DNA from: Eubacterium sp.
GTDB lineage: Bacteria; Bacillota_A; Clostridia; Lachnospirales; Lachnospiraceae
Reading direction: 5' to 3'
NCBI GenBank assembly: GCA_024687845.1
Contig: JAILEL010000272.1
Span: 1 to 5,142 of the forward strand
Length of the DNA: 5,142 nucleotides
Both the position numbers and the translations under genes were made by a program. Positions within the stretch are counted from its first letter, which is position 1; the number at the start of each line of letters is the position of its first letter. This document shows positions 2,074-5,142 of the stretch, one piece after another. The notes under the pieces are model-generated. The model was not told the origin of the DNA. It ran no database searches and was given only the letters and a program-made list of their open reading frames with translations.

Positions 2074-2409
2074 ATGGAGACTATTAGAGATATTATAAGT
2101 AGATGCTTGTCATATAATGATGAACAGGAGTGGTTCGATTTTAAAGATAGTTGGTTTGATCCGGTAGGTATAGGACAGGTTATGGCTGGTGTTGTTTTTG
2201 ATATCATTTTATTTCTCATGGCTGTATACATTTTTATACATTTGTACAATGTTAAGAGAAGTCAAATGTATTCTAGGCAGAATGAGAATAATGAAGGGTT
2301 TTATCTTGCAAAGTTGAATAGATACAGATATATTATCAATAATATAGATGAATGTTCAGAGGAAGAACTAAATGATATAATAAATATTGATTGCGCGAAT
2401 TTGTTGTAG
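2074..2409 (+). CDS. Small membrane protein with AlbA_2-like N-terminal fragment
   Basis: This 111-residue protein appears to be a chimera. Residues 1-35 (NDEQEWFDFKDSWFDPVGIG) match the opening of Schlafen/AlbA_2-type nucleic-acid-binding ATPase-like proteins, where EWFEFK..W....IGEYISALSN is typical. The match ends at GIGQ, where the rest of the domain should begin. Residues 36-58 are a single membrane helix (VVFDIILFLMAVYIFIHLY), followed by a charged cytoplasmic-type tail to the C-terminus. The ATG at 2074 is favoured because GTGAGG (2059-2064) lies 9 nt upstream. A GTG at 2059 is possible but would overlap that site. The ATG at 2182 (residue 37) has AGGACAGG just upstream and could start the original 75-residue membrane protein. 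The next gene starts 16 nt after the stop, so the two are probably cotranscribed. Function unknown. Confidence 0.6.
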   Translation: METIRDIISRCLSYNDEQEWFDFKDSWFDPVGIGQVMAGVVFDIILFLMAVYIFIHLYNVKRSQMYSRQNENNEGFYLAKLNRYRYIINNIDECSEEELNDIINIDCANLL

Positions 2410-2425
2410 AAGGAGGTGCATTAGT

Positions 2426-2677
2426 ATGTCAGCAATGAACTATAATAGGTTGTCAGTTGGAATGATGTTTTCCTGCTTTATTATTTGGATTTTAAGCTTG
2501 TGTTTCGTAACGAATACTACTATTCTTTCCGTTCTCTTAGTGATAGGTGCGATATGTTTTATTGTGAGCGTGGTTATATATGTAAAATATGCACGCTGTA
2601 ATACCTGCGGAAAGCATCTTACAAGGATATGGGGAGATGATTGTCCTCATTGCAAGAATAAGATTGTTAATATATAA
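2426..2677 (+). CDS. Two-pass membrane protein with C-terminal zinc ribbon
   Basis: This 83-residue protein has two hydrophobic helices (about residues 11-27 and 32-53) joined by a very short turn (VTNTT). A cytoplasmic-type tail follows with two CxxC knuckles, CNTC at 58-61 and CPHC at 73-76, spaced as in a rubredoxin-like zinc ribbon. The start at 2426 is set by a perfect AGGAGGTG at 2411-2418. An in-frame upstream start at 2387 would overlap the previous gene and has no such site. I do not recognise a named family. Small membrane zinc-ribbon proteins are common hypothetical cargo in Bacillota elements. It follows the 2074-2409 gene by 16 nt and was probably expressed with it. It appears intact. 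Confidence 0.7.
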   Translation: MSAMNYNRLSVGMMFSCFIIWILSLCFVTNTTILSVLLVIGAICFIVSVVIYVKYARCNTCGKHLTRIWGDDCPHCKNKIVNI

Positions 2678-2721
2678 GAGTTGTAGATATATTTATAATG
2701 TTGAATACCGTTAATTTATGC

Positions 2722-2750
2722 TTGAGATGAAAGGATAGATATGGTATATT
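2722..2750 (+). promoter_or_regulatory. Promoter of the structured RNA
   Basis: TTGAGA (2722-2727, five of six) is followed by a 17-bp spacer and TATATT (2745-2750, five of six), with TGG before the -10 as an extended element. Transcription should start near 2757, directly at the 5' side of the RNA hairpins. The close fit between promoter and RNA start supports an independent transcript. Confidence 0.75.
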
Positions 2751-2756
2751 ATTCAT

Positions 2757-2846
2757 AGAAGGTTGCAGCGATGCAACTGTGGGCTGGTCGAAAGACCCAG
2801 GTCCTACCTAATCGGCGGGGAGACTCCCCGCCATTTGTTTTATATT
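2757..2846 (+). ncRNA. Structured RNA upstream of DUF3800 gene
   Basis: Three hairpins fit within about 85 nt. Hairpin 1 is GTTGCA/TGCAAC (2762-2767 with 2772-2777) closed by a GCGA tetraloop. Hairpin 2 is CTGGTC with GACCCAG (2784-2789 with 2794-2800), closed by a GAAA tetraloop with one bulged C; outer GG (2781-2782) may pair with CC (2803-2804). A linker GTCCTACCTAATC follows, in which ACCT (2806-2809) could pair with AGGT at 2760-2763 or 2799-2802. Hairpin 3 is the terminator. Two GNRA loops and perfect stems in an AT-rich background are strong signs of a functional RNA. Comparative genomics has described several DUF3800-associated RNA motifs (the DUF3800-I and following series) next to genes of this family, and this RNA fits that setting. 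I cannot assign it to a particular numbered motif. Role unknown: cis-regulator of the gene or a partner RNA. Confidence 0.75.
2814..2846 (+). terminator. Rho-independent terminator of the structured RNA
   Basis: GGCGGGGA (2814-2821) pairs perfectly with TCCCCGCC (2825-2832) around a 3-nt loop, followed by ATTTGTTTTATATT. The 8-bp, nearly all-GC stem stands out from its surroundings. It lies between the RNA and the DUF3800 start, so the gene needs readthrough or antitermination from the RNA promoter. Confidence 0.85.
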
Positions 2847-2868
2847 ACTGAAATTGGGGAAAAACGAA

Positions 2869-3138
2869 TTGAAAACTATTAGTATGTTCGTTGATGAATC
2901 TGGTGATCTTGGATTAAAGAACAAGGGAAAATCATATTATATTATTTCTTTGGTTTTCCACGATCAGAATTATGATATAAGTGAAGAATTAAATAAGCTG
3001 GATAGGGAACTTGCAGATTTGCATTGTCCTAAAGGTGCTGTTCATACTGAACCACTCATAAGAAGAGAAGCTCCTTATGAGGAATTTACTCCAAATGAGA
3101 GAAGATCCATATTTACAAAATTGTTCTTCTTTGCATAA
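2869..3138 (+). pseudogene. DUF3800 protein, interrupted (N-terminal part)
   Basis: The product starts MKTISMFVDESGDLG. The FVDESGD motif at residues 7-13 is the hallmark of DUF3800, an RNase H-fold-like family of unknown function common in mobile elements and found beside structured RNAs. The TTG at 2869 is chosen because GGGG at 2856-2859 lies 9 nt upstream and because family members normally begin just before this motif. TTG 2854 or ATG 2884 are alternatives without better sites. The frame ends at TAA 3136-3138 after SIFTKLFFFA, yet family-like sequence continues beyond in the same frame. The truncated 89-residue product would keep only the first conserved acidic motif. It follows the RNA terminator with a gap of about 22 nt and has no promoter of its own that I can see. 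Confidence 0.8.
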
Positions 3139-3552
3139 AAATGCGATATATCATATAAGACTTTTATATTTGAGAAACAGCAGTTTAAAGATGAAATGAA
3201 GCTGGAAGCCAGGATAGCGAGAGAGATTTCTCTGTTCATAAGAGATAATCTATCGTATTTTCAGTCCTTCGATGAATTAGTGTTATATTATGATAATGGG
3301 CAGAAGCAATTAAACAGAATTCTTAATACTGTTTTAGCCACAGAGATTGTGGATTATGATGTTAGAAAAGTAAAGCCAAGTGATTATAGATTATTTCAGG
3401 TTGCTGATCTGATTTGCACTTTGGAGCTATTAAACAAGAAGATGGAAGAAGGCGAACAATTATCGAAGTCCGAGCAATATATTTTCCATAGCAAAAGAGA
3501 TTTCAAAAAAGACTTCATGAAGAAAATTGTTGAAAAGAAATTCAAAGAATAA
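3139..3552 (+). pseudogene. DUF3800 protein, interrupted (C-terminal part)
   Basis: This continues the DUF3800 frame after the stop: KCDISYKTFIFEK, then a helical stretch, LVLYYDNGQ, VRKVKPSDYRLFQVADLICT, and a lysine-rich C-terminus. The Asp residues in YYDNGQ (3292) and QVADL (3406), together with Asp9 of the first half, are the conserved acidic positions expected of an RNase H-like active site; this assignment is inference. With the stop read through, the whole protein would be 227 residues, a normal family length with no gap. The lesion is therefore a single nonsense codon rather than a deletion. An internal ATG at 3196 lacks a strong ribosome site, so independent translation is unlikely. 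Confidence 0.75.
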
Positions 3553-3603
3553 ATGACTTATAGAGTATAAGTGAACGTAATAACAGAATAATGATTAACC
3601 AAG

Positions 3604-3643
3604 ACGGGTAGCAATGATAGAAATATCAAAGCTGCCCGTTTTT
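3604..3643 (+). terminator. Composite terminator after DUF3800 gene
   Basis: ACGGGTAGC (3604-3612) pairs with GCTGCCCGT (3631-3639), nine pairs including one G-U, followed by a T-rich run (TTTTTATTTT). Inside the loop a second helix, TGATA/TATCA (3615-3619 with 3624-3628), is capped by GAAA, with AA on both sides. The nested stem makes a long, neat hairpin that ends the RNA-DUF3800 unit. Confidence 0.85.
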
Positions 3644-3674
3644 ATTTTATCAAAATGCAAAGGAGAAAGAGAAA

Positions 3675-3755
3675 ATGACGGAACAAGAAAAATCACAAAA
3701 AGTTCTGGATGCTGAAGAAGCAGTCAGGCAGTCAGAAAATATCTTCATCCATTGA
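3675..3755 (+). CDS. Short truncated ORF (26 codons)
   Basis: ATG at 3675 follows AAGGAG (3659-3664) and reads MTEQEKSQKVLDAEEAVRQS before ending at TGA 3753. The charged helical opening resembles the N-terminus of small accessory proteins of mobilizable elements. The ribosome site is good, but the coding sequence breaks near 3716-3735, where a different frame takes over with RecG-like text. It is probably the 5' remnant of a gene cut by deletion. Function unknown. Confidence 0.35.
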   Translation: MTEQEKSQKVLDAEEAVRQSENIFIH

Positions 3756-3925
3756 TAGAACGTGGAAGAATTGCTATGACAATACCGGATAAACCTAATA
3801 GCAGATTGCAGAAGTATATTACAATAGTGAGGCAAAGTATAAAAGCTCGATTCAGAATATCAATGATTATTCCGGTGCGGCGGAGCCGCCATTCCGGAAA
3901 AATGAGTACCGCGAATCCGGAATAG
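3716..3925 (+). pseudogene. C-terminal fragment resembling AlbA_2/RecG-like proteins
   Basis: In a frame different from the short ORF before it, codons 3716-3823 read SSQAVRKYLHPLIERGRIAM followed by TIPDKPNSRLQKY. The phrase L-x-P-L-I-E-x-G-x-I-x-M-T-I-P-D-K-P-x-S-x-x-Q-K-Y is typical of the winged-helix C-terminus of RecG-like/AlbA_2 ATP-binding proteins, by memory. The frame then loses resemblance, passes through the GC-rich repeat block and stops at TAG 3923-3925. There is no start codon or ribosome site of its own. It is best seen as a gene scrap and is not known to belong with the AlbA_2 N-terminus at 2074. Confidence 0.4.
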
Positions 3926-4790: not shown

Positions 4791-4981
4791 TCAGCAGTAT
4801 TCTACCACAATGCAAAACATATAATTCTTTATATTATAAACCGGAAGGTGAAGTAACAGCTTGTGAACTGGATCTGCTAGCTGTATATGATAGTATAGTA
4901 ATTCTTGCTGAAGCTAAAAGCGGTATTTATTCGCGGCCGGCCAGACGCGGAGGTCTTAAACAGTGGTGCCTGTCACCGTGA
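4733..4981 (+). pseudogene. PD-(D/E)xK nuclease-like domain fragment, out of frame and truncated
   Basis: The text reads ERKTSELISSILPQCKTYNS, LYYKPEGE, CELDLLAVYDSIVILAEAKS, GIYSRPARRGGLK. Asp at 4871 (ELD) and Glu/Lys at 4910 and 4916 (EAK), separated by a hydrophobic beta strand, form the D-x(12)-E-x-K signature of PD-(D/E)xK nucleases, similar to nuclease-related (NERD-like) domains. The ARRGG segment after it looks native for such proteins. The first possible in-frame start is TTG 4766, without a good ribosome site, so this piece is the continuation of the 4008 gene rather than its own gene. After GGLK (about 4957) the sequence becomes QWCLSP and stops at 4979-4981. The rest of the domain is missing and base composition shifts there, so this is a second lesion. 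Confidence 0.6.
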
Positions 4982-5002
4982 ACAGCAAAGGAGACGGCCG
5001 AC

Positions 5003-5098
5003 GTGATCTGTTTTTGCATCATGATCCTTCTGGTTAGTTTTGCGTTTTATTTCGGCAAACGTCTGCTGGCGTACCGGATACTGAAAAAAGGACTGTGA
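5003..5098 (+). CDS. Short single-pass membrane peptide
   Basis: GTG at 5003 follows AAGGAG (4988-4993) by 9 nt and encodes 31 residues. A hydrophobic helix (ICFCIMILLVSFAFYF) is followed by a basic tail (GKRLLAYRILKKGL), so the peptide is predicted to sit in the membrane with its C-terminus inside. The stop overlaps the next ATG as TGATG, a classic translational coupling arrangement. Codons are GC-richer (CTG, GGC, CGG) than in the genes to the left, suggesting the peptide belongs to the flanking DNA rather than the element. No family recognised; it is too short for certainty. Confidence 0.45.
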   Translation: MICFCIMILLVSFAFYFGKRLLAYRILKKGL

Positions 5099-5142
5099 TG
5101 CGAAGGGATTCTGAGATCGGCCTGCAAGTTTTTTGTGCGTTT
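5098..5142 (+). CDS. Gene start running off the right edge
   Basis: ATG at 5098 overlaps the stop of the 31-codon peptide (TGATG) and reads MRRDSEIGLQVFCAF, open to the window end. Translational coupling is the only support besides the open frame. With 15 codons no function can be given. Confidence 0.35.
   Translation, partial: MRRDSEIGLQVFCAF

Follow-up and report, generated by a model that had tools for sequence, protein, structure and literature searches.

The window, i.e., the whole 5,142-nucleotide stretch of DNA that was analysed, encodes a small RNA that is a member of the catalogued family RF02975 and lies upstream of a broken DUF3800 gene. The relationship between RNA and protein across the relatives is a one-way dependence: a near-full-length protein of this clade was never seen without the RNA, whereas the RNA often occurs without the protein. 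The RNA in front of a nuclease-like gene is found in gut and rumen bacteria. By analogy with known systems, we give even chances to the reading that the RNA serves to neutralise a DUF3800 effector with an RNase H fold and that phages carry the RNA as a decoy. The literature searched contained no published function for RF02975 RNA; the DUF3800-XI motif on which the family is built reportedly comes from Weinberg and colleagues in 2017.

The locus and its protein

The sequence-only reading of this DNA had described a promoter, a structured RNA, a terminator and a DUF3800 frame, all of which were confirmed in place by sequence, Rfam, folding and PF12686 (Table 1). Three things had escaped it: the membership of the RNA in an existing Rfam family, the break in this copy of the gene, and the occurrence of the RNA by itself in phages. 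The covariance search that it had proposed for a DUF3800 motif returned RF02975 at 58.4 bits, with the model aligned across positions 1–48 of 48; the curated gathering cut-off of the family is 37.8 bits. Three further Rfam matches, to Lnt, mir-3140 and mir-30, score well short of their cut-offs. The predicted fold of 2752–2845 has an energy of −37.9 kcal/mol (z −3.93), which none of 200 shuffles equalled. The RNA is single copy: no tandem or direct repeats were found in 2700–2870, as had been stated before.

Table 1 Features of the RNA–DUF3800 locus, in window coordinates
Feature	Position	Strand	Basis or remark
Sigma-70-type promoter, TTGAGA-17-TATATT	2722–2750	+	10/12 consensus match, TG ahead of −10
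Whole RNA, three hairpins	2762–2832	+	Contains the RF02975 match
Hairpin 1, 6-bp stem, GCGA loop	2762–2777	+	Outside the Rfam model; sequence variable
Rfam RF02975 (DUF3800-XI) match	2780–2829	+	58.4 bits, E 1.9e-11
Hairpin 2, GAAA loop, 2-nt bulge	2781–2804	+	Conserved core of the RNA
Hairpin 3 / intrinsic terminator, 8 bp	2814–2832	+	T-rich tail 2833–2843; unpaired in the Rfam model
DUF3800 (PF12686) coding frame, broken	2869–3549	+	Pieces 2854–3135 and 3139–3549 searched apart
In-frame TAA splitting the DUF3800 frame	3136–3138	+	Sequence

Taken on its own, the promoter is weak evidence, since promoter-like sites matching at least 9 of 12 positions are about as frequent in the window as expected (27 seen, 22.6 expected). 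Among relatives, such sites precede the RNA in 25 of 41 intact loci (8.3 expected), the other 16 being without one, in 6 of 13 remnant loci (2.5 expected) and in 16 of 36 gene-less bacterial loci (5.5 expected); among viral orphans the count is 2 of 12 (0.8 expected).

The two pieces of the DUF3800 frame were scored separately because of the in-frame stop, and gave 21.9 bits (N-terminal) and 20.6 bits (C-terminal) against a PF12686 cut-off of 21. Judging from the sequence, the start codon is likely TTG 2869 rather than 2854, since relatives begin there and GGGG is found some 10 nt before it. Thus, the terminator previously described ahead of the gene is present, but the gap that follows hairpin 3 becomes 36 nt instead of about 22 nt. 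Start codons chosen by rule lie a median of 30 nt past the end of the Rfam match in the family (n = 39, range 20–93). Two close relatives are intact, each with one open frame: L001 shares 99% identity with the first 89 residues of the window protein, and L002 has 99.05% DNA identity with the window over 2178–3864, where the matching stops.

The stand-alone DUF3800 protein of this locus has about 225 residues, and its RNA partner about 80 nt. PF12686 is the only match of the two protein pieces at E 1 or better, and the best predicted folds are those of RNase HII; the protein probably has an RNase H-like fold, with RNase HII as its nearest counterpart. The absence of a ToxN-like toxin from such a fold list would carry no weight against one. 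Acidic residues are conserved at D14, E15, D147 and D185 (numbering of L002). Three intact DUF3800 proteins had no match at or near any cut-off in PADLOC and NCBIfam, and the single match in a PDB sequence search (E 0.33) was taken as chance. A protein search gave one partial match in INPHARED and one distant match in plasmids. A Collinsella aerofaciens protein (NZ_OY725717.1, 261533–262195) is 33.5% identical to this DUF3800, with 96% of the length covered.

Elsewhere in the window, a tyrosine recombinase frame (404–1969) is split by an in-frame TAG at 1109–1111 and runs on into a coiled-coil-like region; it is the second broken gene on the contig and adjoins an HTH_17 gene at 204–401. At the far end, in 4925–5142, the G+C content rises from about 0.33 to 0.44–0.48 near GGCCGGCC at 4935. 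This segment has no near match in E. coli genomes and is possibly another element or a chimeric joint.

Architecture of the RNA across relatives

Covariation was assessed in an alignment of 25 of the 41 intact loci, aligned on sequence alone. It supports all three hairpins: 83.4% of cells are paired, compared with 75.7% in shuffles, and none of 500 shuffles was as high, while controls with a slid register gave 39–55%. Changes on both sides of a stem amount to 54 cells, compared with 22.2 in shuffles, again with none of 500 as high, which bears out the expectation that the stems covary across homologues. For further pair types, 12 of 500 shuffles were as high.

Hairpin 1 was also tested without an alignment, as stem against shuffles (p 0.05 or less). 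By this test it is significant in the following bacterial loci: 22 of 41 with an intact gene, 8 of 13 with a remnant and 14 of 36 without a gene. In viruses it is significant in 1 of 6 loci that have the gene and in 1 of 13 distinct ones that do not. Roughly half of the intact loci thus have a significant hairpin 1, whereas most phage copies do not. The sequence-only reading had seen two hairpins capped by GNRA loops. For hairpin 2 this generalises, the loop being GNRA in 37 of 41 intact loci, but a GNRA loop on hairpin 1 is not general in the family. The T-tract after hairpin 3 is present in 39 of 41 intact bacterial loci. When gene-less and intact bacterial copies were compared on an alignment fitted to the model, pairs in hairpins 1, 2 and 3 were kept about equally well, at 78, 91 and 95% in the former vs 72, 92 and 98% in the latter.

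Distances between RNA cores correlate with those between proteins (Mantel r 0.72, p 0.001, n = 38; for hairpin 1, r 0.32), a correlation that joint inheritance alone could produce. Divergent members of the family were sought with R2, a covariance model of the RNA built in this analysis; it recovered L204 and L205, which RF02975 does not report even at E 0.5.

In the bacterial RNA, variation falls in hairpin 1, the loops and a linker no longer than 8 columns. An RNA-guided effector, which had been among the earlier suggestions, is rejected for this reason: the bacterial copies contain no unpaired variable stretch of guide length. Nor was an OMEGA-like arrangement, with a guide segment beside a constant scaffold, found in the bacterial copies.

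Distribution of RNA and protein in bacteria

All 13 relatives with a match covering 81 or more of 89 residues (L001–L013) have the RNA immediately ahead of DUF3800. The scan also covered L014, a weak relative, which has no RNA. In genome searches with strict filters and 14 candidates scored per genome, RF02975 exceeded its cut-off in 56 of 397 Lachnospiraceae genomes and in 2 of 398 phylum-wide genomes, both of which are common to the family draw. A control on 14 named genomes gave a match in one, under the cut-off.

Seventy-two RNA sites above the cut-off, in 55 genomes, were classified by what follows them: 30 have an intact gene, 10 a remnant, 28 none, and 4 are at contig ends. The gene is therefore absent or only a remnant at 38 of 72 sites. 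A 73rd site over the cut-off, in genome G004, is L005, a remnant. Here "intact" means a single open frame of at least 205 codons, although over the full profile L084 and L106 show in-frame stops, and a locus counts as "none" if tblastn has no match at 1e-3 within 2.5 kb; several "none" loci retain a few codons of the gene start. The RNA-only bacterial loci could be leftovers of decay, and draft assemblies may exaggerate gene breaks.

The census from the protein side, with at most 7 candidate places scored per genome, yielded, with E 1e-25 or better, 43 matches from 39 genomes; of these, 34 are near full length, the other 9 being fragments. It should be noted that the clade is defined by profile A1, so that more distant DUF3800 proteins fall outside it, and that A1 was built from proteins behind the RNA, which means that the clade is partly defined by the RNA. 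Just upstream of 31 of the 34 near-full-length proteins is a listed RF02975 match, that of G095 being below the cut-off. The proteins of G230 and G047 follow divergent RNAs missed by Rfam (R2, 31.4 and 43.0 bits), and that of G045 is on a contig that starts within hairpin 3. Thus, all 33 assessable near-full-length proteins in the 397 Lachnospiraceae genomes have the RNA upstream. Together with the 13 relatives, this substantiates the earlier claims of a conserved association and of a dedicated RNA–DUF3800 pair laid out as promoter, RNA, terminator and gene, which the family loci support. Eight of the 9 fragments have a listed RNA; the C-terminal piece in G347 has none.

The neighbourhood of intact loci adds no recurrent partner: in 98 of 150 frames scanned, no family was found in more than 2 of the 98, with Fic, AbiEii and ResIII appearing as single or double matches. 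In genome G294, locus L127 has two different RNA subtypes about 0.9 kb apart, each a little under the Rfam cut-off (36.0 and 35.2 bits), with no DUF3800 nearby.

Copies of the RNA in viral contigs

Two RNA patterns retrieved 24 viral contigs from IMG/VR; viral patterns for two other RNA subtypes retrieved none. A clade DUF3800 adjoins the RNA in 6 of the 24, the gene being cut by the contig end in L150 and in two pieces in L159. The records of the remaining 18 contain no clade DUF3800 and no PF12686 match (0/18); viral records may be fragments, and gene absence here means absence from the record. These 18 contigs, eight of which measure 184, 162, 145, 139, 126, 91, 74 and 65 kb, hold 13 distinct RNA sequences. 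The RNA is above the Rfam cut-off in 17 of them, the exception being L154 (35.4 bits), which is without hairpin 3.

Phage genes near the RNA include exonuclease, PhoH, terminase and portal genes in L211, a tail protein gene in L209, and an exonuclease gene in L212 and L142. Since terminase PF03237 is present in only 1 of the 18, phage identity rests on PHROGs (20 proteins, in some records) and on the call of IMG/VR elsewhere.

By shared proteins in stretches of at most 18 kb, the 18 records fall into about 8 groups, with two pairs of groups sharing one weak match each. A tRNA gene lies no more than about 70 nt from the RNA in four groups (L210/L143; L209/L153/L157; L213; L214), and the stretches concerned contain as many as 30 tRNAs. 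The RNA of a fifth group, which has 8 records, comes after an exonuclease-like gene, with another frame between them in L140. This group comprises four clades (L211/L216/L145/L140; L142/L138; L156; L212), between which matching proteins share 21–38% identity. L142 and L156 are an exception, with two downstream genes at 77% and one upstream gene at 68%; their exonucleases share 24%. L215, L152 and L135 have neither a tRNA nor an exonuclease gene close to the RNA.

Phage copies are mostly without hairpin 1 and the U-tract, and keep hairpin 2 and a compensated hairpin 3. Hairpin 3, counted as kept at 6 or more pairs of which at least 3 are G–C, is kept in 12 of the 13 distinct copies, compared with 165 of 3600 background windows; its letters changed and its pairing was retained. 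Only 3 of these 12 have a T-tract after it. Hairpin 2 of the pattern-found copies was excluded as evidence of conservation because the search pattern selects for it. Two copies were found by position rather than by pattern, both in records without PF12686: L288 (23.7 bits), in which the inner stem is swapped for another that pairs, and L268 (23.4 bits).

Near related exonucleases, the model detected the RNA at 12 of 84 loci; these belong to 10 of 82 contigs, 8 of them already known, and the phage copies are thus patchy. When one 18-kb phage stretch was compared with 348 genomes of the family, with two candidate places scored per genome, 43 genomes matched and 39 of the 47 reported matches were on the RNA, the best reaching 96% over 57 nt. 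Seven short matches were examined for CRISPR spacers that would link the phages to a host, and none was found. A wider gapped pattern gave 19 stretches, 7 known and 12 new, of which R2 accepted one (L323, the contig of L288) and 11 were chance-like; an RNA search of INPHARED gave one 25-nt match, also chance-like.

Several features of the tRNA-rich regions are recorded here in their own right. In L210, 30 tRNA genes occupy 18 kb of the 139-kb contig, with the RNA just ahead of tRNA-Glu. Some 0.4 kb from the RNA of L214, ARAGORN calls a phage tRNA whose anticodon has four bases (taaa), at 9076–9150 (= L155 2626–2700). In L225 and L226, tRNA genes come after the exonuclease (20 of the 84 exonuclease loci were scanned). 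The viral contig of L229, which encodes a related exonuclease, carries a ROOL RNA (RF03087, 344 bits) at 1119–1725 beside tRNA genes.

Proposed function and alternative explanations

A protein that is not seen without the RNA, an RNA that outlives the protein, and phages that carry the RNA alone together form the profile expected of an RNA antitoxin. In the mechanism that we favour, an RNA of about 80 nt (hairpins 1, 2 and 3) would be made from its own promoter and would mostly end at hairpin 3, with occasional read-through supplying the DUF3800 mRNA. The RNA would bind the DUF3800 protein and hold the nuclease inactive; loss of the RNA, for example when a phage shuts down host transcription, would release it. 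A phage that carries the RNA core without the gene, in a tRNA array or near an exonuclease gene, might keep the nuclease neutralised during infection. We infer transcripts, RNA–protein binding, inhibition and toxicity, and likewise release on infection, counter-defence and Lachnospiraceae as the phage hosts. The more specific proposal, that large rumen and gut Lachnospiraceae phages carry a stand-alone, core-trimmed host antitoxin RNA as counter-defence against the DUF3800 effector, is in our opinion a tentative one, with slightly less than an even chance of being right.

The existence of RNA-only loci in both bacteria and phages suggests inhibition by the RNA. In the main rival explanation, the DUF3800 nuclease would need the RNA as an activating cofactor or scaffold, and the copies in phages would be decoys forming dead complexes, as with Racrs. 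A required cofactor would fit a census in which no near-full-length protein lacks the RNA; the Racrs are a precedent (PMC10651486), and DUF3800 proteins accompany Cas12a2 and VI-F effectors (PMC10910872 and PMC12669027). We nevertheless consider activation unlikely: bacterial copies have no guide-like variable unpaired stretch, the RNA is kept and the protein lost at many bacterial loci, and phage copies, with hairpins 2 and 3 kept and compensated, are not obviously crippled.

That same persistence, in the 28 of 72 bacterial sites with no gene found and in 18 of 24 viral records, could mean that the RNA has its own DUF3800-independent function in bacteria and phages, the gene merely borrowing its promoter. 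To this we assign a somewhat smaller probability still, as the RNA is directly upstream of 33 of 33 assessable near-full-length proteins and the RNA core and protein distances correlate, albeit in a manner for which joint inheritance could suffice. Hairpin 3 and its T-tract come after the promoter and before the gene in 39 of the 41 intact bacterial loci, an arrangement that would also suit an RNA that is only a leader governing read-through into the gene, i.e., an attenuator or riboswitch. This explanation is rejected as highly improbable, because it leaves unexplained the RNA-only phage copies in 18 viral records; moreover, 9 of the 12 phage copies with hairpin 3 keep the stem without a T-tract.

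If neutralisation by the RNA is the right explanation, the RNA-neutralised effectors gain a further protein fold and a further RNA type, and phages would have a means of counter-defence in a small structured RNA other than a CRISPR repeat or a ToxI repeat. If it also holds for other DUF3800 RNA motifs, these RNAs would stand for a whole class of immune nucleases neutralised by RNA. The one-way dependence and the phage copies turn an open functional question into a simple experiment.

Relation to known systems

Compared with the Rfam description of RF02975, this analysis adds hairpin 1, for which the model has no counterpart, regards hairpin 3 as paired, and adds the divergent members L204 and L205 and the RNA-only phage copies. 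Among the matches listed in the literature on phage RNA mimics, RF02975 RNA appears in no title or abstract opening.

The DUF3800 proteins beside Cas12a2 and type VI-F have an RNase H fold and are TPR-DUF3800 proteins or other accessories of CRISPR loci (PMC10910872, PMC12669027), whereas the protein described here is stand-alone and RNA-paired. The promoter–RNA–terminator–gene operon, seen here from sequence alone, is shared with type III toxin–antitoxin systems (ToxIN, CptIN, TenpIN), but those have tandem RNA repeats where the present RNA is single copy, and their protein families differ. ToxIN is escaped by phages via pseudo-ToxI, a case of RNA mimicry (PMC5086642). Racrs (PMC10651486) resemble the present case in being a solitary phage copy of a host immune RNA; their target is CRISPR-Cas, whereas here it is a putative DUF3800 effector. 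The same layout, with a promoter, a non-coding RNA, a Rho-independent terminator and an effector without its own promoter, is found in AbiF/RCd22 of C. difficile (Rfam abiF, RF03085), whose RNA neutralises the toxin both in cis and in trans (PMC12373285). AbiF/RCd22 has an Abi_2 protein and two motif copies in its RNA, whereas the protein here is a DUF3800, which its RNA would neutralise in a like manner.
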